NCBI GenBank assembly: GCA_016873115.1
Contig: VGYB01000008.1
Span: 1 to 58,568, forward strand
Reading direction: 5' to 3'
DNA length: 58,568 bases
DNA from: Planctomycetota bacterium
Lineage (GTDB): Bacteria > Planctomycetota > Phycisphaerae > Phycisphaerales > SM1A02
A model generated the notes under the pieces. That model was given only the letters and a program-made list of their open reading frames with translations. It searched no databases and was not told the DNA's origin. Positions 12,359 through 42,725 of this stretch are shown here, one piece after another (positions within the stretch are counted from its first letter, which is position 1; every line of letters starts with the position of its first letter). The position numbers and the translations under genes are program-made.

Positions 12359-13858
12359 ATGGAAGTCAATGGTCGTCGTCGCCGTCGTCGTCGTGGTCGC
12401 TCCGGCGGAGGCAACGGTGGAGGCGGTGGTGGAGGTGGTGGAGGTGGTGGGGGCGGTCCATCGGCGATCGTCGCAGCACCGAGCGTGGCGATCCTGCCCG
12501 GCACCAGTGTGCCCACCGACGAGCAATTGGACTTCGAGGCTTCGCAACTCGACACCGAGTTGAAGGAGAAATACGAGGCTGCGAAGAAGGAGAACCTGGA
12601 CGCAGCGAGCCTGCAGAAGCTCACCGCCGATCAGCTCGCCAAGGAAGCCAAGATGCTCGGTCTGGGCGACCTCGTCGGCATGCCGCGAAACAAGCTCGTC
12701 TTCGAGGTCGTCAAGGCCAAGGCGATGAAGCATGGCCTGATGTTCGCCGAGGGCACGCTCGAGATCATGCCTGACGGATACGGCTTCCTGCGCAGCGCCG
12801 AGTACTCGTACCTTCCGTCGGACGACGATGTGTATGTGAGCCCCGCGCAGATCCGCCGGCTCGGCCTTCGCCGTGGCCATGTGGTACGCGGCCTCGTGCG
12901 CCCGCCGAAGGAGGCCGAGACCTACTTCGCGCTGCTGCGCATCGACACTGTGAACGGCCACGACCCGAAGCGCCTGCAGAACCTGCCGACCTTCGAGAAC
13001 CTCACGCCGCTGCATCCTGACAAGCGCATCCACCTTGAGATCCTCGAGCAGCCGCAACGGCTCGAGCCGCGCATCATGGACATGGTCACGCCGCTCGGCT
13101 TCGGTCAGCGGGCACTCGTCGTGGCGCCGCCGCGCACCGGCAAGACCGTCATCCTGCAGCAGATCGCCAACGCGATCACCCACAACCACCCTGATGTGCA
13201 TGTGATCGTCCTGCTTGTGGACGAGCGTCCCGAGGAAGTGACGGACTTCAAGCGCACGACCAAGGGCAAGGTCGAGGTCGTCGCGAGCACCTTCGATGAG
13301 GAAGCCAGCCGTCACATCCAGGTCAGCGACATCGTCATGGAAAAGGCCCGCCGCATGGTGGAGCTCGGTGACCATGTGGTGGTGCTGCTCGACTCGATCA
13401 CCCGTCTGGCCCGTGGCTACAACAACGCGGGCGCCGGTTCGGGCAAGATCGGCTCTGGTGGCGTCGACAACGCTGCGCTCATCCGCCCCAAGAAGTTCTT
13501 CGGCAGCGCGCGCAACATCGAGAACGGCGGCAGCCTGACGATCGTCGGCACGGCGCTCGTCGAGACCGGCAGCCGCGCCGACGAGGTGATTTTCGAGGAG
13601 TTCAAGGGCACCGGCAACGCCGAGCTGCACCTCACGCGAAAGCTCGTGGAAAAGCGCGTGTGGCCGGCGATCGACATCTCGGCCAGCGGCACTCGCCGCG
13701 AGGAACTGCTGCTCGACGCGAAGGAGCACGAACTCATCGTCCGCCTGCGCAAGGTGGTTGCCGACATGAATGTGGTCGAGGCCATGGAACTGCTCCGAAG
13801 CCGCCTGTCCAAGACCAAGTCCAACGCGGAATTCCTCATGACGATGGCCATGTCCTGA
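12359..13858 (+). CDS. rho: Transcription termination factor Rho with Arg/Gly-rich head
   Basis: Rho is a hexameric RNA-dependent ATPase that ends transcription. The protein has 499 residues. The N-terminal 40 residues are seven consecutive arginines, then Gly-rich sequence with a run of 14 glycines (codons 12416-12457). The conserved Rho N-terminal helical domain, the CSD RNA-binding domain ([10 protein letters not shown]), Walker A ([11 protein letters not shown]), Walker B ([10 protein letters not shown]) and the Q-loop/R-loop region follow. ATG 12359 has a weak AAGGCAG upstream. A GTG at 12323 would add 12 residues. Confidence 0.97.
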
Positions 13859-35462: not shown

Positions 35463-35909
35463 GTGGCGATGCCCGAACCGACCCAGTGGTCCGAGTGCCT
35501 TGCGCGGGAACGACCCGGTCGTCGCGTGTTGCTGGCTGCGGTGATCGTGGCGTTGGCCGTGGCGGTCGGCGTGGCGGCACAGGAGTGGTTCGTGGGTGCG
35601 CTCACCGCGGTCGGCTTGGCTGCGGTCACCGCTGAAGGCTGGGCAGGGTGCCGTTGCGTGGTGGATGGCCACGGCATCGTGCGCGCGGGCCCGTTCAGGC
35701 GGCGGCATCTGTCGTGGGCATCGGTCGCGACATTCACCGTCGAGGAGGCAGGCGCCACGCTCGCACGGGGCACCGGCCGCGGGGCGATCTCGTTCCACCT
35801 GGACGGCGTGGCGCCCTCGCGTCGTGAGCGTGTCCACCACGCGCTCCACGCGTGGCAAGCATGGTGGCTCACATCGCGCACGGCAACGGAGCGGTCGAAC
35901 CATGGCTGA
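35463..35909 (+). CDS. Small membrane protein with PH-like domain
   Basis: The protein has 148 residues. Two hydrophobic segments at about 20-60 are followed by a cytoplasmic domain with the pattern of bacterial PH-like proteins (VVDGHGIVRAGPFRRRHLSW). The GTG start fits TAGGAT 6 nt upstream; an ATG at 35469 is an alternative. It overlaps the next gene by 8 nt. Function unknown. Confidence 0.65.
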   Translation: MAMPEPTQWSECLARERPGRRVLLAAVIVALAVAVGVAAQEWFVGALTAVGLAAVTAEGWAGCRCVVDGHGIVRAGPFRRRHLSWASVATFTVEEAGATLARGTGRGAISFHLDGVAPSRRERVHHALHAWQAWWLTSRTATERSNHG

Positions 35910-36310: not shown

Positions 36311-38113
36311 ATGCAGAAGGACCCCAGCCGCATCAAGGTCGTGGTCGCCACCGACTGCGGCAGCACCACGACCAAGGCGATCCTCATCGAGTTCGTGGAT
36401 GGCGTGTATCGCCAGACGCACCGCGCCGAGGCACCGACCACGGTCGAGGCTCCCTTCGCCGATGTCACGCTGGGCGTGGCCAATGCCGTCACGGAACTCC
36501 AGGAACTCAGCGGCCGACGGCTCGTGGACGATGACGGCACGATCCTGCGCCGCGCCTCGCTCGATGCGGCCGATGGGTGCGACATGTACATCTCGACCAG
36601 CAGCGCCGGTGGCGGGTTGCAGATGATGGTCGCGGGGGTGGTCAAGGAAATGACCGCCGAGAGCGCCAAGCGCGCCGCACTCGGTGCGGGCGCGATCGTC
36701 ATGGACACGATCGCGAGCAACGACCGTCGTCGGCCGCACGAGCAGGTGCAGCGCATCCGCGAGCTCCGACCCGACATGGTCCTGATCTCGGGCGGCACCG
36801 ACGGGGGCGACACGAAGAAGGTCACGGAACTCGCGGAACTCATCGCGCCGGCCAAGCCCCGCCCGCGCTTCGGTGGCGAGTACAGCCTCCCCATCATCTT
36901 TGCGGGCAACCGCGATGCGCGTCCGGCGATCGAGCGCACCTTCTCGACCGGTGGCTTTGACCTCAAGGTCGTCGACAACCTTCGCCCGACGCTTGAGCGC
37001 GAGCACCTCGGGCCGGCGCGCGAGACGATCCATGATGTCTTCCTCGAGCATGTCATGGCCCACGCGCCCGGCTATGACCGGTTGATCGCCTGGGCCGATG
37101 CGCCCATCATGCCCACGCCCGGCGCGGTCGGCGACATCCTGCAGGCGATCGCCAAGGGTCGCGGCATCAATGTCGTGGGCGTCGACATCGGCGGGGCGAC
37201 AACCGATGTCTTCAGCGTCTTCGATGGCTCGTTCAACCGCACGGTGAGCGCGAATCTGGGGATGAGCTACTCGATCAGCAATGTCTGCGCCGAGGCCGGC
37301 ATGGAGAGCGTGCTCCGCTGGGTGCACCTGGACATGGATGAGCGCGAGCTGCGCAACCGGGTCAAGAACAAGATGATCCGGCCGACCACGATCCCGCAGA
37401 CGCACGAGGCGCTCGTGTTCGAGCAGGCCGTGAGCCGTGAGGCATTGCGGCTGGCCTATGTCCAGCACAAGGCCTTCGCGACCGAGCTCAAGGGTGTGCA
37501 GCAGCAGCGCACCGTGGGCGATGCCTTCAGCCAGGAGGAGAGCGGCCGTTCGCTTGTCAGCGGCATGAAGCTCGACCTGCTCGTGGCCAGCGGTGGCGTG
37601 CTGAGCCACGCACCGCGCATGGAGCAGACCGCTTCAATGCTGATCGATGCCTTCGAGCCCGAGGGCTTCACCGAGCTTGCGAAGGACAGCATCTTCATGA
37701 TGCCGCATCTGGGCGTGCTCGCCACCGTGCATGAACGCGCGGCGATGGAAGTCTTCGAGCGCGACTGCCTCGTCATGCTCGGCACCTGCATCGCGCCGGC
37801 GGGCACGGCGGTCGCGGGCAAGCCCGTGATGCGCTGGAGCGCACGCTGGGAGGGCGGCAGCGCCGAAGGAACGCTGATGGCCCAGGAGATGAGGCTGCTG
37901 CGCATCGGCGAGCGCGCGCAGGTCGAGGTCACTCCGGAGCGGGGCTTCGATGTCGGTGGGGGTCCCGGCGTGGCCGTGAAGCGCGAGGTGCGGGGCGGCA
38001 GCGTCGGGCTCATCCTTGATGGTCGCGGGCGCTCGCTCTCCGTGCCCGGTGGGGCCGAGGGCAGGCGCTTGGTCGCTGCGTGGGCGAAGGCACTCGAACT
38101 GTACCCCGATTGA
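36311..38113 (+). CDS. MutL-type (glutamate mutase L family) ASKHA ATPase
   Basis: The 600-residue protein has the ASKHA fold: phosphate-1 motif TDCGSTTTKAIL near residue 15, phosphate-2 motif GVDIGGATTDVF near 287-298, and an adenosine-type ISGGTDGG. It matches the 'glutamate mutase L' family, whose biochemical role is unclear. No glutamate mutase subunits are nearby. A likely -10 TAGCCT (36296-36301) ends 9 nt before the ATG. It opens a block of six genes with four membrane proteins, so a motor or chaperone role for a membrane complex is an inference. Confidence 0.85.
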   Translation: MQKDPSRIKVVVATDCGSTTTKAILIEFVDGVYRQTHRAEAPTTVEAPFADVTLGVANAVTELQELSGRRLVDDDGTILRRASLDAADGCDMYISTSSAGGGLQMMVAGVVKEMTAESAKRAALGAGAIVMDTIASNDRRRPHEQVQRIRELRPDMVLISGGTDGGDTKKVTELAELIAPAKPRPRFGGEYSLPIIFAGNRDARPAIERTFSTGGFDLKVVDNLRPTLEREHLGPARETIHDVFLEHVMAHAPGYDRLIAWADAPIMPTPGAVGDILQAIAKGRGINVVGVDIGGATTDVFSVFDGSFNRTVSANLGMSYSISNVCAEAGMESVLRWVHLDMDERELRNRVKNKMIRPTTIPQTHEALVFEQAVSREALRLAYVQHKAFATELKGVQQQRTVGDAFSQEESGRSLVSGMKLDLLVASGGVLSHAPRMEQTASMLIDAFEPEGFTELAKDSIFMMPHLGVLATVHERAAMEVFERDCLVMLGTCIAPAGTAVAGKPVMRWSARWEGGSAEGTLMAQEMRLLRIGERAQVEVTPERGFDVGGGPGVAVKREVRGGSVGLILDGRGRSLSVPGGAEGRRLVAAWAKALELYPD

Positions 38114-38123
38114 GGACACGATC

Positions 38124-39254
38124 ATGGCCAAGGCCTACACACCAGGACTGACCGTGAGCTCACGCGTGCGGTATCGCGCACGCCGGCTCCTGCCCCTGAC
38201 GGGTCGCATCACCGTGAAGCTCGGCGATCGCGTCAAGGCGACCGATGTCGTCGCACAGACCGACCTTGAGGGCGACATCACGCCAATGAAGATGTCGAAC
38301 CTGCTCTCGTGCGCGCCGCGCGATGTGCCGGGGCTGCTGCTGAAGCCTGTCGGTTCCGCCATCGCCATGGACGAGGCGATCGCGCAGTCGAAGGGGATCT
38401 TCGGCATGATGAAGGTCACGGTGAAGGCGACCGCGTCCGGCACCATCGAGAGTGCCAGCGACTCGACCGGCATGGTCATGATCCGCGGCGCCGCGCAGCC
38501 GGTGCAGGTGCGTGCGTTCACCAGCGGCCGTGTCGTCGAGGTGCTCGGCAGCGAGGGCGCCGTCGTCGAGAACGACGTGGCGCTCGTCCAGGGCATCTTC
38601 GGCATCGGTGGCGAGGCCTACGGGCCCATCGCGATCGCGTGCGCGCGCCCCGAGGAGCGGCTCGAGGCATCGTCGATCCGCAGTGAGCACGCCGGGTGCA
38701 TCCTCGTGGGTGGGGCACGCATGACCATCGACGCAATCCGCCGTGCCATCGAGCTCGGTGTGGCAGCGATCGTGTCGGGCGGCATCGATGACGCTGACCT
38801 GAAGGCACTGCTGGGGCACGATCTGGGGGTGGCGATCACCGGCAGCGAGAAAGTCGGCATCACGCTGGTCGTGACCGAGGGCTTCGGTGACATCACCATG
38901 GCGGCCCGCACGCACGCCTTGCTGGCCTCGCATGCCGGCCATGCCGCGAGCGTGAACGGGGCCACGCAGATCCGTGCCGGCGTCATGCGCCCAGAGATCG
39001 TCATCCCGCTGGCCGACGAGGCGTCGGGCGATGCCCATGTGGGCGGCGGCGCGACTGCTGGGGAGCTCACCATCGGGACGCCGGTTCGCGTGATCCGGGA
39101 TCCCTGGTTTGGCGCACTCGGCACGGTGGCCGCACTCCCGGAACCGCCAGCCGTGCTCGGCTCGGGGTCGAAGGCCCGCGTGCTTGAGGTCGCCTTGGCC
39201 GATGGGCAGCGGGTCACCGTGCCGCGCGCCAATGTCGAGTTGATCGCCGGGTGA
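38124..39254 (+). CDS. Barrel-sandwich hybrid-like / KOW-like protein
   Basis: The protein (376 residues) starts 10 nt after the ATPase gene. Residues about 12-50 (GRITVKLGDRVKATDVVAQT) and 110-160 (ASGTIESASDSTG, then RVVEVLGSEGAVVENDV) look like two halves of a barrel-sandwich hybrid (biotinyl/lipoyl-type). The C-terminal 50 residues (GTPVRVIRDPWFGALGTV and VPRANVELI) resemble a KOW domain. No signal or membrane segment is present. It may connect the ATPase to the membrane part. Confidence 0.7.
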   Translation: MAKAYTPGLTVSSRVRYRARRLLPLTGRITVKLGDRVKATDVVAQTDLEGDITPMKMSNLLSCAPRDVPGLLLKPVGSAIAMDEAIAQSKGIFGMMKVTVKATASGTIESASDSTGMVMIRGAAQPVQVRAFTSGRVVEVLGSEGAVVENDVALVQGIFGIGGEAYGPIAIACARPEERLEASSIRSEHAGCILVGGARMTIDAIRRAIELGVAAIVSGGIDDADLKALLGHDLGVAITGSEKVGITLVVTEGFGDITMAARTHALLASHAGHAASVNGATQIRAGVMRPEIVIPLADEASGDAHVGGGATAGELTIGTPVRVIRDPWFGALGTVAALPEPPAVLGSGSKARVLEVALADGQRVTVPRANVELIAG

Positions 39255-39302
39255 TCGAACCGGCTCCCGGCGAACAGTCCACGGGCGCGTTAGGCTCCAC
39301 GC

Positions 39303-40112
39303 ATGGTGCTCGGTGCCGACGCAGGCTTCATGAACCCCGAGAAGATGCTCCTGTGTGTCGTGCTTGCGGCCACCTGTGCATGCATCCTTGCCAGCATGGT
39401 GGCGGCGCGAGCCGGCCGAGTGCCGAAGATCCGCCGCATCACCGGTCTCGAAGCGGTCGAGGAGGCCGTGGGCCGCGCCACCGAGATGGGCAGGCCGATC
39501 CTCTTCGTTCCGGGCATCCAGGACATGGACAACCCGATGACGGTCGCGGGCATCACGGTGCTCAGCCGCGTCGCGGGCACGGCTGCGCGGTACGACGCCA
39601 CGCTCGATGTTCCCGTGAGCCGATCGCTCGTCATGCAGGCGGCGCGCGAGAGCGTGCAGGCCGCGGCGCTCCAGACCGGGCAGCCCGACTGGTACGACCC
39701 GGAGCGCATCCGCTACATCACCGATGAGCAGTTCGGGTACGCGGCCTACGCAGCGGGCGCGATGGCACGCGACAAGCCTGCTGCGTGCTTCTACATGGGG
39801 TGCTTCTTCGCCGAGAGCCTGATCCTGGCCGAGAACGGCAATGCCATCGGTGCGATCCAGATCGCCGGCACAGCTGAAACCGCGCAGCTTCCCTTCTTCG
39901 TGGCCAGCTGTGACTACACCCTCATCGGCGAGGAATTCTTCGCGGCCAGCGCCTACCTGAGCGGCGCACCCGACCAGCTCGGCACGCTGCGCGGGCAGGA
40001 CATCGTCAAGGCCTTGATCGCGCTTGTGCTGGTGTTCGGCGTGGTCATGGCCACGACCGATGCGTTCTCGCCGGAGCCGGCCAGCGAGCCGACGGCGGAG
40101 GTGGCGCCGTGA
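39303..40112 (+). CDS. DUF6754-like membrane protein
   Basis: The protein (269 residues) has an N-terminal membrane helix (about 14-34), a cytoplasmic or periplasmic domain (RITGLEAVEEAVGRATEMGR, VPGIQDMDNPMTVAG) and a C-terminal helix (ALIALVLVFGVVMATT). It is believed to belong to the DUF6754 family; this should be confirmed. TAGGCT at 39291-39296 ends 6 nt before the ATG and may be an internal promoter. It overlaps the next gene by 4 nt. Confidence 0.72.
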   Translation: MVLGADAGFMNPEKMLLCVVLAATCACILASMVAARAGRVPKIRRITGLEAVEEAVGRATEMGRPILFVPGIQDMDNPMTVAGITVLSRVAGTAARYDATLDVPVSRSLVMQAARESVQAAALQTGQPDWYDPERIRYITDEQFGYAAYAAGAMARDKPAACFYMGCFFAESLILAENGNAIGAIQIAGTAETAQLPFFVASCDYTLIGEEFFAASAYLSGAPDQLGTLRGQDIVKALIALVLVFGVVMATTDAFSPEPASEPTAEVAP

Positions 40113-40804
40113 GCCGCTCGATCGCGCTGCTCATCTGCCTGATGGGCGGCCTCACCATGCTCGTGAGCCCGTTCCTGCCGATGGCCACGGGCTGGGCCAA
40201 CGATGTCACCGACTGGTTCAACATCCTGGCCGCCATGGCCTTTGTGCTCGGCGGCGGCAGCCTGCTGAAGGTGCAGCTCATGCGCTTGAGCGCACGCGGA
40301 CCCGGTTGGGGCTATTCGGCCCTCACGCTCCTGGCGTTCATCGTCACGCTCTGGGTCGGCTTGGGCAAGGTCGGTGTCGTCGCCGATCCATCGGCACCCA
40401 CGGTGGCGTGGAGCGGCAAGCCCGATGATGAGGGTTCGGCGTTCTGGTGGATCTATCTCTATGTGATGACGCCGATCACCTCGACGCTCTTCGCGGTGCT
40501 GGCGTTCTATGTCGCGAGCGCGGCGTTCCGTGCGTTCCGTGCGAAGAACGTCGAGGCCACGCTGCTCTTGGCCACGGCCTTCGTGATCCTGCTCGGCCGC
40601 ACCTTTGCCGGCGTGGTGCTCACCGGGTGGCTGCCCGACTGGGCGAGCGGACTGCGCCTGGAGAACCTGGCCGTCACCATCATGGATGTCTTCAACACCG
40701 CCGGCAATCGCGCGATCATCATCGGGATCGCGCTCGGCGTCGCCTCGACTGGCATCCGGCTGATGCTCGGCCTCGATCGCAGCTACCTCGGGGGTGACGC
40801 ATGA
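40109..40804 (+). CDS. Polytopic membrane protein of the ATPase block
   Basis: The protein has 231 residues with about six hydrophobic segments (for example FNILAAMAFVLGGGSLLKV and TLLLATAFVILLGR). GTG 40109 overlaps the preceding stop and the 3' end overlaps the next ATG, so translation is coupled. No named family was recognised. Confidence 0.75.
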   Translation: MSRSIALLICLMGGLTMLVSPFLPMATGWANDVTDWFNILAAMAFVLGGGSLLKVQLMRLSARGPGWGYSALTLLAFIVTLWVGLGKVGVVADPSAPTVAWSGKPDDEGSAFWWIYLYVMTPITSTLFAVLAFYVASAAFRAFRAKNVEATLLLATAFVILLGRTFAGVVLTGWLPDWASGLRLENLAVTIMDVFNTAGNRAIIIGIALGVASTGIRLMLGLDRSYLGGDA

Positions 40805-41670
40805 GCGGCGGCCTCGACCGGCGATGGATCTACCTCGGCATGATGCTCGCGGTCGCGCTGCCGATTCTCTGGAACGGCATGACGGGCAAGACGTTCCCCG
40901 AGTCGCCCACGCCGCCCTCCCAGGCGTGCTTCGATGCGATCGAGGCGCTGCCCGAGGGTTCGCGGGTCTTGGTGAGCTTCGATTACGACCCCGCGAGCGA
41001 GGGGGAACTGGCACCGATGGCCACCTCGTTCATGCGTCACCTGATGCACAAGCGGTTGAAGCCCGTCATCATCGCGCTGTGGCCGCTCGGTCCGACCAAG
41101 GGCGAGGAAACGATCTCGAATGTGATCAAAGCAGACTTCCCCGACCGGGTGAGCGGCAGGGACTTCGTGAACCTTGGCTTCCAGACTGGCAATGAAGGCG
41201 TGCTCAAGGTGATCGGCACGGACTTCCGCAAGCAGTTCCCGGTCGATCGATCGGGCATGCCGGTCGATCGCCTGCCGATCATGGAGGGCATCACCAAGGT
41301 CGGTGATTTCTCGCTGGTCATCACGATCAGCGCGGGCTACCCCGGCAGCAAGGAGTGGGTGCAGTATGTGTCCAGCGCGAACCCGGGCCTGGTCCTGCTC
41401 GCTGGCGTCACCGGCGTGCAGGCCTCGCAGATCTACTCCTATTACCCCGGGCAGTTGCGAGGCATGCTCGCCGCGATCAAGGGCGCAGCGGAGTACGAGG
41501 CGCTGGTGAGCGCAGTGGTCGATGGTGATGGGGTGACGCCGCCTCGCTACACCGAGGCCCGCCGCCGCATGGCACCGCAGCTCTTCGGCCACCTCGTGCT
41601 GATCGGGCTGATCGTCGCCGGGAACGCGGTGTACTTCTCGCAGCGTGGACGCAAGGCGGTGGCACGATGA
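40801..41670 (+). CDS. Membrane-anchored protein with large extracytoplasmic domain
   Basis: The protein (289 residues) has helices at both ends (about 9-26 and 265-283) and a middle domain rich in alpha/beta pattern. It begins PEGSRVLVSFDYDPASEGEL and contains VITISAGYPGSKEWVQYV. Topology suggests that the middle lies outside the cytoplasm. The ATG overlaps the previous gene (ATGA) and the 3' end overlaps the next ATG. Confidence 0.75.
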   Translation: MSGGLDRRWIYLGMMLAVALPILWNGMTGKTFPESPTPPSQACFDAIEALPEGSRVLVSFDYDPASEGELAPMATSFMRHLMHKRLKPVIIALWPLGPTKGEETISNVIKADFPDRVSGRDFVNLGFQTGNEGVLKVIGTDFRKQFPVDRSGMPVDRLPIMEGITKVGDFSLVITISAGYPGSKEWVQYVSSANPGLVLLAGVTGVQASQIYSYYPGQLRGMLAAIKGAAEYEALVSAVVDGDGVTPPRYTEARRRMAPQLFGHLVLIGLIVAGNAVYFSQRGRKAVAR

Positions 41671-42725
41671 GCAGCACGACCATGGAACCCTCCGCACCGG
41701 CCCAGGGCAAGTGGTGGATCGGCCTCTTCCTCGTGATCGCCGTGCTCGTGGCGATCCGTGCCGGCATCGGCGAGGGGATGGGCCGCGCCTATGTGCAGAC
41801 CGAATCGACGTCCTACGCGGCTGCGACGGATGACCAAGGCCGTGTGACCTGGTCGGCCGTCGCAGACGGCGCAGCGGGCTCGGCCACGATCGAGCGGGAT
41901 GTCTTCCGCACGGCAGGGCAATACCGTGCCGCTGAAGCAGCGTCGCCCAACCAACAGGCGATCCGCTTCTCGTGGGATCGCACCATCGGCCTGTGGCTTG
42001 CCGCGTTCTTCACGCTGGCCGTCTTCAGTTTCCTGGTGGGCGACAACCCGGCCTACAAGTTCACCGAGAGCATCGTGATCGGTGTCAGCGCCGGCTACTG
42101 GATGGCGGTTGCCTTCTGGGAAACGCTCGTCCCCAAGCTTGTGGCGCAACTTGCTCCGGGCCTGGTCAAGGCGTGGTGCATGCCCAACCTCGACGCGGGT
42201 GCGATCAATCTGGACGCCTTGATCCCGCTCGGCCTGGGCATCATGCTGCTCTCGCAACTCACGCCGCTGGGCCGCCATGTGGGCCGCTGGCCGCTGGCGT
42301 TCGTGATCGGCACCTTCGCCGGGCTCAAGATGATCAGTCATGTCGAGAGCGACATCATCGAACAGGTCCGCGCGACGATGCTCCCGCTGGTGGTGTTCGG
42401 CGATGATGGTTCATTCGCGGCATGGGCCTCGATCCGCAACCTGCTCATCGTGGCCGGCGTGCTCTGCACGCTCGTCTACTTCGTGTTCAGCATCGAACAC
42501 AAGGGGCCGGTGGGCCGCGCGGCGCGGGTCGGCGTCTGGTTCCTGATGATCACCTTCGGTTCGGCCTTCGGCTTCACGGTCATGGGCCGGATCGCGCTGC
42601 TCGCTGCCCGGTTCGAGTTCCTCTTCATCGATTGGCTCTGGCTCATCGATCCCAAGGGTCAGCGGACGATGGCGGCGGTCTCCGCCGCCGCGGAACTTGG
42701 CTCGTCGCTTCTTAACACAATCTGA
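41667..42725 (+). CDS. Polytopic membrane protein of the ATPase block
   Basis: The protein has 352 residues with about eight hydrophobic segments. An extracytoplasmic loop of about 70 residues (around 45-110) lies after the first helix. The end of the gene runs into the Pho-box-like repeats of the next gene. It is coupled to the previous gene by ATGA. Family unknown. Confidence 0.75.
   Translation: MSSTTMEPSAPAQGKWWIGLFLVIAVLVAIRAGIGEGMGRAYVQTESTSYAAATDDQGRVTWSAVADGAAGSATIERDVFRTAGQYRAAEAASPNQQAIRFSWDRTIGLWLAAFFTLAVFSFLVGDNPAYKFTESIVIGVSAGYWMAVAFWETLVPKLVAQLAPGLVKAWCMPNLDAGAINLDALIPLGLGIMLLSQLTPLGRHVGRWPLAFVIGTFAGLKMISHVESDIIEQVRATMLPLVVFGDDGSFAAWASIRNLLIVAGVLCTLVYFVFSIEHKGPVGRAARVGVWFLMITFGSAFGFTVMGRIALLAARFEFLFIDWLWLIDPKGQRTMAAVSAAAELGSSLLNTI

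Follow-up and report, generated by a model that had tools for sequence, protein, structure and literature searches.

The window, a 58,568-nucleotide stretch of contig VGYB01000008.1 (assembly GCA_016873115.1) from a bacterium of the Planctomycetota (Phycisphaerales, SM1A02), harbors six co-directional open reading frames (ORFs), designated P1 to P6, on the plus strand between positions 36311 and 42725, where a first-pass annotation made from the sequence alone had placed them. The composition it described, an ATPase, a soluble protein and four membrane proteins, was upheld by the Pfam match of P1 and by hydropathy analysis, which predicted no membrane segment in P1 and P2, two each in P3 and P5, and about six each in P4 and P6. 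The 4-nt overlaps it had reported were found as three overlaps chaining P3–P4–P5–P6. The six genes are real, but comparison across genomes revealed a different division into parts: P1 and P2, usually accompanied by an upstream gene, P0, and sometimes by another, PM, constitute one unit, and P3–P6 constitute a second unit that occurs in one to three paralogous copies.

The cassette starts at 35463, earlier than the 36311 of the first-pass annotation, since PM and P0 recur beside the gene set (Table 1); both stood out among the recurrent neighbor clusters present in at least 5 of 120 loci. Counts for these 120 loci hold duplicates (e.g., L077/L099, L076/L104, and L082/L112), and a set of 49 non-redundant loci was defined by the presence of P1 and P3, at least 1.5 kb of sequence upstream of P1 and de-duplication by P1 sequence. 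Homologues of PM were detected in 32 of the 120 loci, with P1 as the next gene downstream in 29, and in 22 of the 49; homologues of P0 occurred in 65 and 42, respectively. P0 lies between P3–P6 and P1 in L140, L144, and L167 and between P2 and P3 in L168, and thus travels with the set despite changed gene order. PM showed a match to bPH_6 under the Pfam cut-off (E = 0.0032). Comparison with two genomes of the same genus gave ratios of nonsynonymous to synonymous substitution rates (dN/dS) between 0.04 (P1) and 0.23 (PM) for all eight genes (near 0.04 for P1, 0.05–0.06 for P2, 0.11–0.13 for P0, and 0.18–0.23 for PM); therefore, all eight are under purifying selection. No Pfam family was found above cut-off for P2, P4, P5, or P6 of the window, and no convincing match to known structures was obtained by sequence for P1 to P6, the best for P4 being an unconvincing one to a chain of cation/H+ antiporter subunit F (E = 0.22).

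Table 1. Genes of the cassette (window coordinates) and divergent MutL-plus-P2 pairs in other loci (locus coordinates)
Feature	Coordinates	Strand	Length (aa)	Description
PM	35463..35909	+	148	accessory part; hydrophobic stretch at the N-terminus followed by PH-like domain
P0	35902..36261	+	119	no known family; near-constant part
P1	36311..38113	+	600	MutL-type ASKHA ATPase; about 110 residues beyond MutL domain
P2	38124..39254	+	376	soluble adaptor; barrel-sandwich hybrid N-terminus, weak KOW-like C-terminus
P3	39303..40112	+	269	DUF6754; transmembrane segment, Rossmann-like domain (probably cytosolic), transmembrane segment
P4	40109..40804	+	231	about 6 transmembrane segments by hydropathy
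P5	40801..41670	+	289	transmembrane segment, Rossmann-like domain (probably extracytoplasmic), transmembrane segment
P6	41667..42725	+	352	about 6 transmembrane segments; family-conserved SFLY-DNPxYK region
MutL-plus-P2 pair	L174:8310-10817			
MutL-plus-P2 pair	L175:9275-11749			
MutL-plus-P2 pair	L176:8391-11332			
MutL-plus-P2 pair	L177:2001-5017			
MutL-plus-P2 pair	L182:13844-16825			
MutL-plus-P2 pair	L183:8047-10953			

Genome-wide counts in 294 Planctomycetota genomes covered P1, P2, P3, and P5. P1 (MutL above cut-off) was present in 80 genomes, P2 in 71, P3 (DUF6754) in 76, and P5 in 77, the last in every P3-positive genome and in one more. All four occurred together in 67 genomes and none in 208; the other 19 carried a partial set (P1 alone in 7, P3 and P5 in 5, P1, P3, and P5 in 3, P1 and P2 in 2, and P2, P3, and P5 or P1, P2, and P5 in 1 each). 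P1 and P3 were shared by 70 genomes, a comparison that ignores kinship. Among 31 close relatives, the window's own genome counted, 22 carried DUF6754. The parts were also found to be kept at distances of 0.25 to 3 Mb on one contig: in the single-contig genome G240, P3 and P5 are found at about 0.13 Mb and P1–P2 at about 3.08 Mb, in G115 the corresponding positions are near 0.53 and 1.05 Mb, and in G053, G131, and G305, each likewise a single contig, the set is split over two or three places. As distant parts are retained in single-contig genomes, the association is not due to linkage alone.

At the level of loci, all six genes were present in 42 of the 49 non-redundant loci and followed the exact order P1–P6 in 35. 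The 14 that failed the strict order include a split P2 ORF (L077), a P1–P2 fusion (L107), and a contig end (L081), and the remainder reflect rearrangement, split loci or missing parts. Rather than being scattered in relatives, the genes are linked or, when unlinked, co-inherited, and the expectation that the six recur together was borne out both in Planctomycetota and in loci labeled as other phyla. The latter came from an alignment scan with DUF6754, of which the best 80 of 567 confirmed stretches were considered, so that the scan is no survey; their labels comprised Planctomycetota, Zixibacteria, Neomarinimicrobiota, Latescibacterota, Cloacimonadota, Riflebacteria, Coatesbacteria, Acidobacteria, and others. 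Single phylum labels may be wrong because many of the records are metagenome bins, and three loci labeled Neomarinimicrobiota grouped with planctomycete sequences in the P5 tree. P2 and P3 were also seen at L116, which comes from a record of the cultured planctomycete Thalassoglobus neptunius. Twelve further genomes (one labeled Phycisphaerae, the others assigned to different phyla or named simply "bacterium") were selected for a P3 locus devoid of P1 and, in 11 cases, also of P2; P1 was found elsewhere in 11 of the 12 and P2 in all 12. Of 12 genomes of family f50 that carry the set and were tested for hydrazine synthase alpha, 10 gave a match, which identifies this family as anammox bacteria.

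P1 matched PF13941 (MutL) with 432.2 bits against a cut-off of 27, its residues 11–486 covering profile positions 1–450 of 450. Its Pfam matches above cut-off were MutL and Hydantoinase_A, with FtsA and PilM not among them. The phosphate-1, phosphate-2, and adenosine motifs of ASKHA proteins, searched as sequence patterns, were present in 63/64, 64/64, and 64/64 full-length P1 homologues (550–760 aa, duplicates included). P1 thus resembles MutL/GlmL in that it covers the MutL domain from end to end and has kept its ATPase motifs intact, but differs from them in the roughly 110 residues beyond that domain and in being paired with P2 and a membrane complex, and it scored well under the equivalog cut-offs of GlmL (NF040745; 235.7 bits against 475) and of Or-4 of ornithine degradation (NF040744; 204.3 bits against 600). 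The P1 tree split 32 system sequences, a sample, from nine other MutL sequences with support of 0.95–1.0; one of three GlmL loci (L188) passed its score and length filter, at which L189, L194, L181, L190, L191, and L192 fell out. Glutamate mutase E (PF06368) had no match in the window's own genome. It was found above cut-off in 5 of the 294 genomes, all five P1-positive and devoid of P3 and P5, i.e., in none of the 71 genomes that combine P1 with P3 or P5 vs. 5 of the 9 other P1-positive genomes. A glutamate mutase link of P1 was therefore rejected on co-occurrence in the 294 genomes and in the own genome; the ATPase does not strictly accompany mutase subunits, and the first-pass view that no such mutase is present and that the MutL name explains nothing held true as far as glutamate mutase is concerned.

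The coding sequence of P2 is assigned, from its sequence, to the ATG at 38124 rather than to the longer TTG ORF from 38016 because its homologues begin like MAHAYTPGL. The P2 family showed 62% mean column identity over 25 members, and at E ≤ 0.01, 12 of the 25 matched RnfC_N (best E 1.3e-6), 16 matched Biotin_lipoyl, and 2 weakly matched KOW. The earlier description as a barrel-sandwich/KOW protein agrees with profile matches to barrel-sandwich domains in many family members, but the KOW assignment is weak, and P2 of the window itself reached none of the three Pfam cut-offs. By these weak profile matches, the N-terminus of P2 is similar to the barrel-sandwich of RnfC/NqrA and to the RNA polymerase beta' hybrid domain, whereas the rest of P2 matched nothing convincingly. 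RnfC carries iron-sulfur sites; in the alignment of the 25 P2 sequences, no invariant or nearly invariant cysteine was found, and there is therefore no sign of RnfC-type iron-sulfur sites. Both profiles match a single continuous P1–P2 protein in L107 and L130, of 999 and 1006 aa, respectively, and also in L102, which is truncated. Together with the retention of unlinked parts, these fusions support one functional system. Divergent P1–P2 pairs without adjoining P3–P6 were also observed (Table 1), fused in L174, L175, L182, and L183 (ORFs of 824–993 aa) and separate in L176 and L177. In L174, the fusion is followed at a distance of 200 bases by an ORF read by eye as mraZ, in an apparent division/cell-wall cluster.

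P3 is a clear member of DUF6754 (PF20539; 363.2 bits against a cut-off of 27), which Pfam lists as a family of unknown function and which probably also occurs in Chloroflexota. In the window's genus, P3 is short (269 aa) and lacks the N-terminal region of many homologues of about 400 aa or more; this extra region of the longer homologues is signal-like and in two of five scanned weakly fn3-like (E 0.07–0.08). AlphaFold models of P3 and P5 (pLDDT, the predicted local distance difference test score, 89.5 and 95.3) showed the same plan of helix, alpha/beta domain, and helix. The best fold matches, Sir2 (1s7g_D; Z 11.9, root-mean-square deviation 3.3, 138 aligned residues) for P3 and 1kjn_A (Z 9.5, deviation 3.4, 139 aligned) for P5, are generic Rossmann-like ones; carbon monoxide dehydrogenase epsilon and transhydrogenase domain III were among the matches of both, and Foldseek gave no hit at E ≤ 0.001 for either. 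From such generic matches, the common fold is taken and no function. Basic residues follow the first helix of P3 and flank P5 at both ends, which by the positive-inside rule suggests a cytosolic domain in P3 and an extracytoplasmic one in P5. Profile comparison found no sequence homology between P3 and P5 or between P4 and P6. Pfam scans of 31 members each gave stray weak matches for P4 and a single one for P6. One P4 homologue (L071:4594-5856) carries an N-terminal FHA domain (Pfam E 1.2e-8), a hint of phosphopeptide regulation.

The P3–P6 block is present twice in several planctomycete loci and up to three times in Zixibacteria loci, and such multi-block loci hold one P1–P2 pair or none. For five three-block loci, trees built separately from P3, P4, P5, and P6 all recovered copies 1, 2, and 3 as monophyletic groups (support 0.87–1.0; one P6 copy 3 was not found); hence the blocks diverged anciently and were duplicated whole. 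Copy 2 grouped with three single-copy planctomycete sequences (0.88–1.0), and the loci of the window's genus fell with the copy-2 type in the P5 tree. Supports in the P5 tree were taken after re-rooting and may be shifted, which does not affect those of the block-copy trees. In a locus labeled Caldithrix (L150:8356-16115), other ORFs, among them one that carries a Por secretion tail and another with an NYN domain, interrupt the P3–P6 block. A plasmid search with P3 gave no match.

As to neighboring genes, the gene downstream of P6 in the window is a member of Porin_O_P (47.6 bits against a cut-off of 20.9), which the first-pass annotation had taken as a hint of an envelope process. Porin homologues lie beside the set in 6 of the 120 loci (L074, L075, L076, L095, L098, and L104, of which L076 and L104 are two records of one genome), and the P5 tree places all six in the lineage to which the window belongs. 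The porin was accordingly rejected as a part of the system, and the hint was not borne out, the gene being a local neighbor. Where the window holds the porin and a zwf-like gene, ten loci of one lineage (L073, L079, L109, L122, L127, L133, L136, L142, L143, and L162) have genes of fatty-acid synthesis, identified by eye as plsX, fabH, fabD, and fabG. In a locus labeled Zixibacteria, a system-type P1 (L186:11260-13113) stands beside divergently oriented look-alikes of tolQ, tolR, tolB, and pal, again named by eye, from position 13472.

It is proposed, with a probability of about 0.5, that these genes form a single two-unit system in which a shared P1–P2 unit activates or remodels the P3–P6 membrane complex in trans. 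Unit 1 would consist of the soluble ATPase P1 bound to the adaptor P2, usually with P0. Unit 2 would be a membrane complex of the polytopic P4 and P6 together with P3 and P5, whose Rossmann-like domains sit on helix pairs, that of P3 probably facing the cytosol and that of P5 the outside. Unit 1 would dock on the cytosolic face of unit 2, with P2 probably contacting P3, and P1 would then activate or remodel that complex by repeatedly binding and hydrolyzing ATP, much as known ASKHA activator ATPases do with their partner enzymes. The intact motifs of P1, the P1–P2 fusions and the retention of this unit apart from a membrane block that exists in several versions make a trans-acting ATPase unit the simplest reading. 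Complex formation, the docking site, the topology and ATP-driven activation are what we infer from these data, and the first-pass inference of a membrane complex energized or assembled by the ATPase has the same standing.

Several observations weigh against this proposal. Contact between the two units is putative, being read from operon structure and co-inheritance, and the Rossmann matches of P3 and P5 are generic. P3 and P5 occur without P1 in G043, G065, G069, G078, G170, and G314 (completeness 76–95%), P1, P3, and P5 without P2 in G125, G244, and G285, and P1 and P2 without P3 or P5 in G178 (99% complete) and in G081, with P2 represented by a 28-residue end fragment; G095 has P1, P2, and P5 only, and G319, one of the twelve further genomes, shows no P1. 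The set is also patchy, as complete genomes of the same order lack it, and the divergent P1–P2 pairs without P3–P6 suggest that unit 1 may have other clients.

The main rivals of trans-activation are a motor-driven transporter and an actin-like scaffold. ATP hydrolysis by P1 might directly drive a solute, a lipid or a polymer through P4/P6, which would make the system a new primary active transporter with a shared energizing unit. This has a modest chance of being correct: one P1–P2 pair serving up to three diverged blocks resembles a shared energizer with interchangeable membrane modules, and a P5 domain probably outside and a P3 domain probably inside would suit a substrate-handling device. 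ECF transporters have a shared energizing module with ABC ATPases, and their pairing of one energizing unit with several alternative membrane units serves as a working analogy, although no ABC ATPase domain was among the Pfam matches here. However, P1–P2 can be encoded megabases from P3–P6, more like a trans-acting factor, no substrate-linked neighbor recurs widely among the 120 loci, and no primary transporter is known to be driven by the MutL-type branch of ASKHA proteins. P1 could instead be an actin-like ATPase that forms filaments or rings on a membrane complex organizing envelope growth, division or protein secretion, in the manner of PilM on PilNOP or of FtsA, an idea regarded as unlikely. 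ASKHA proteins are related to PilM/FtsA, and the type IV pilus inner-membrane platform PilM–PilN–PilO–PilP, like the present set, has an ASKHA ATPase encoded with several membrane proteins. The ASKHA motifs of P1, the apparent mraZ near the L174 fusion, the apparent tol/pal genes beside P1 in L186 and the FHA domain fused to one P4 are consistent with such a role, but the L174 and L186 neighborhoods are single cases, Pfam assigns P1 to MutL and Hydantoinase_A and not to FtsA or PilM, and the PilM–PilP families were not among the Pfam scan matches of any part, no direct comparison having been made.

Two other explanations are less probable again. A reading in which each of the two units has its own function and regulation alone accounts for the shared operon is improbable; the units are unlinked in some genomes, yet unlinked units are still co-inherited. 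Membership of P1 in the MutL Pfam family would fit an ordinary GlmL-type reactivase of a B12-dependent mutase with the membrane genes as bystanders, and this is considered very improbable, as the co-occurrence data contradict it for glutamate mutase, the B12 enzyme that the test covered, and P1 scores no more than half of the cut-off for GlmL or for Or-4.

Searches of the openly licensed literature found no mention of DUF6754, of the two Pfam accessions or of the gene names. Among the matches listed, nothing relevant to a shared-ATPase system was found, and planctomycete papers searched for MutL and for mutase terms contained neither. The combination of an ATPase–adaptor unit with multiple membrane blocks was matched to no known transporter or secretion system. 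Thus the set appears to be new as a system, its ATPase belonging to a known family, with a putative function read from sequence. The odds are about even that it represents an ancient ATP-driven membrane machine in which between one and three membrane complexes of ancient divergence depend on one MutL-type ATPase–adaptor unit; its proposed range would extend from Planctomycetota, among them the anammox bacteria, to candidate phyla such as Zixibacteria, Marinimicrobia, and Cloacimonadota.

Only for P1 does an above-cut-off match lead to a family whose role has been described, and in these genomes its co-occurrence speaks against such a role with glutamate mutase; the MutL family would thereby gain a third, non-mutase partner. 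As far as the searches show, the set, which reaches the anammox bacteria of family f50, has so far been unstudied. A membrane system of seven or eight genes that is strongly selected across many poorly cultured lineages would count as a core function, in the envelope or in energy.

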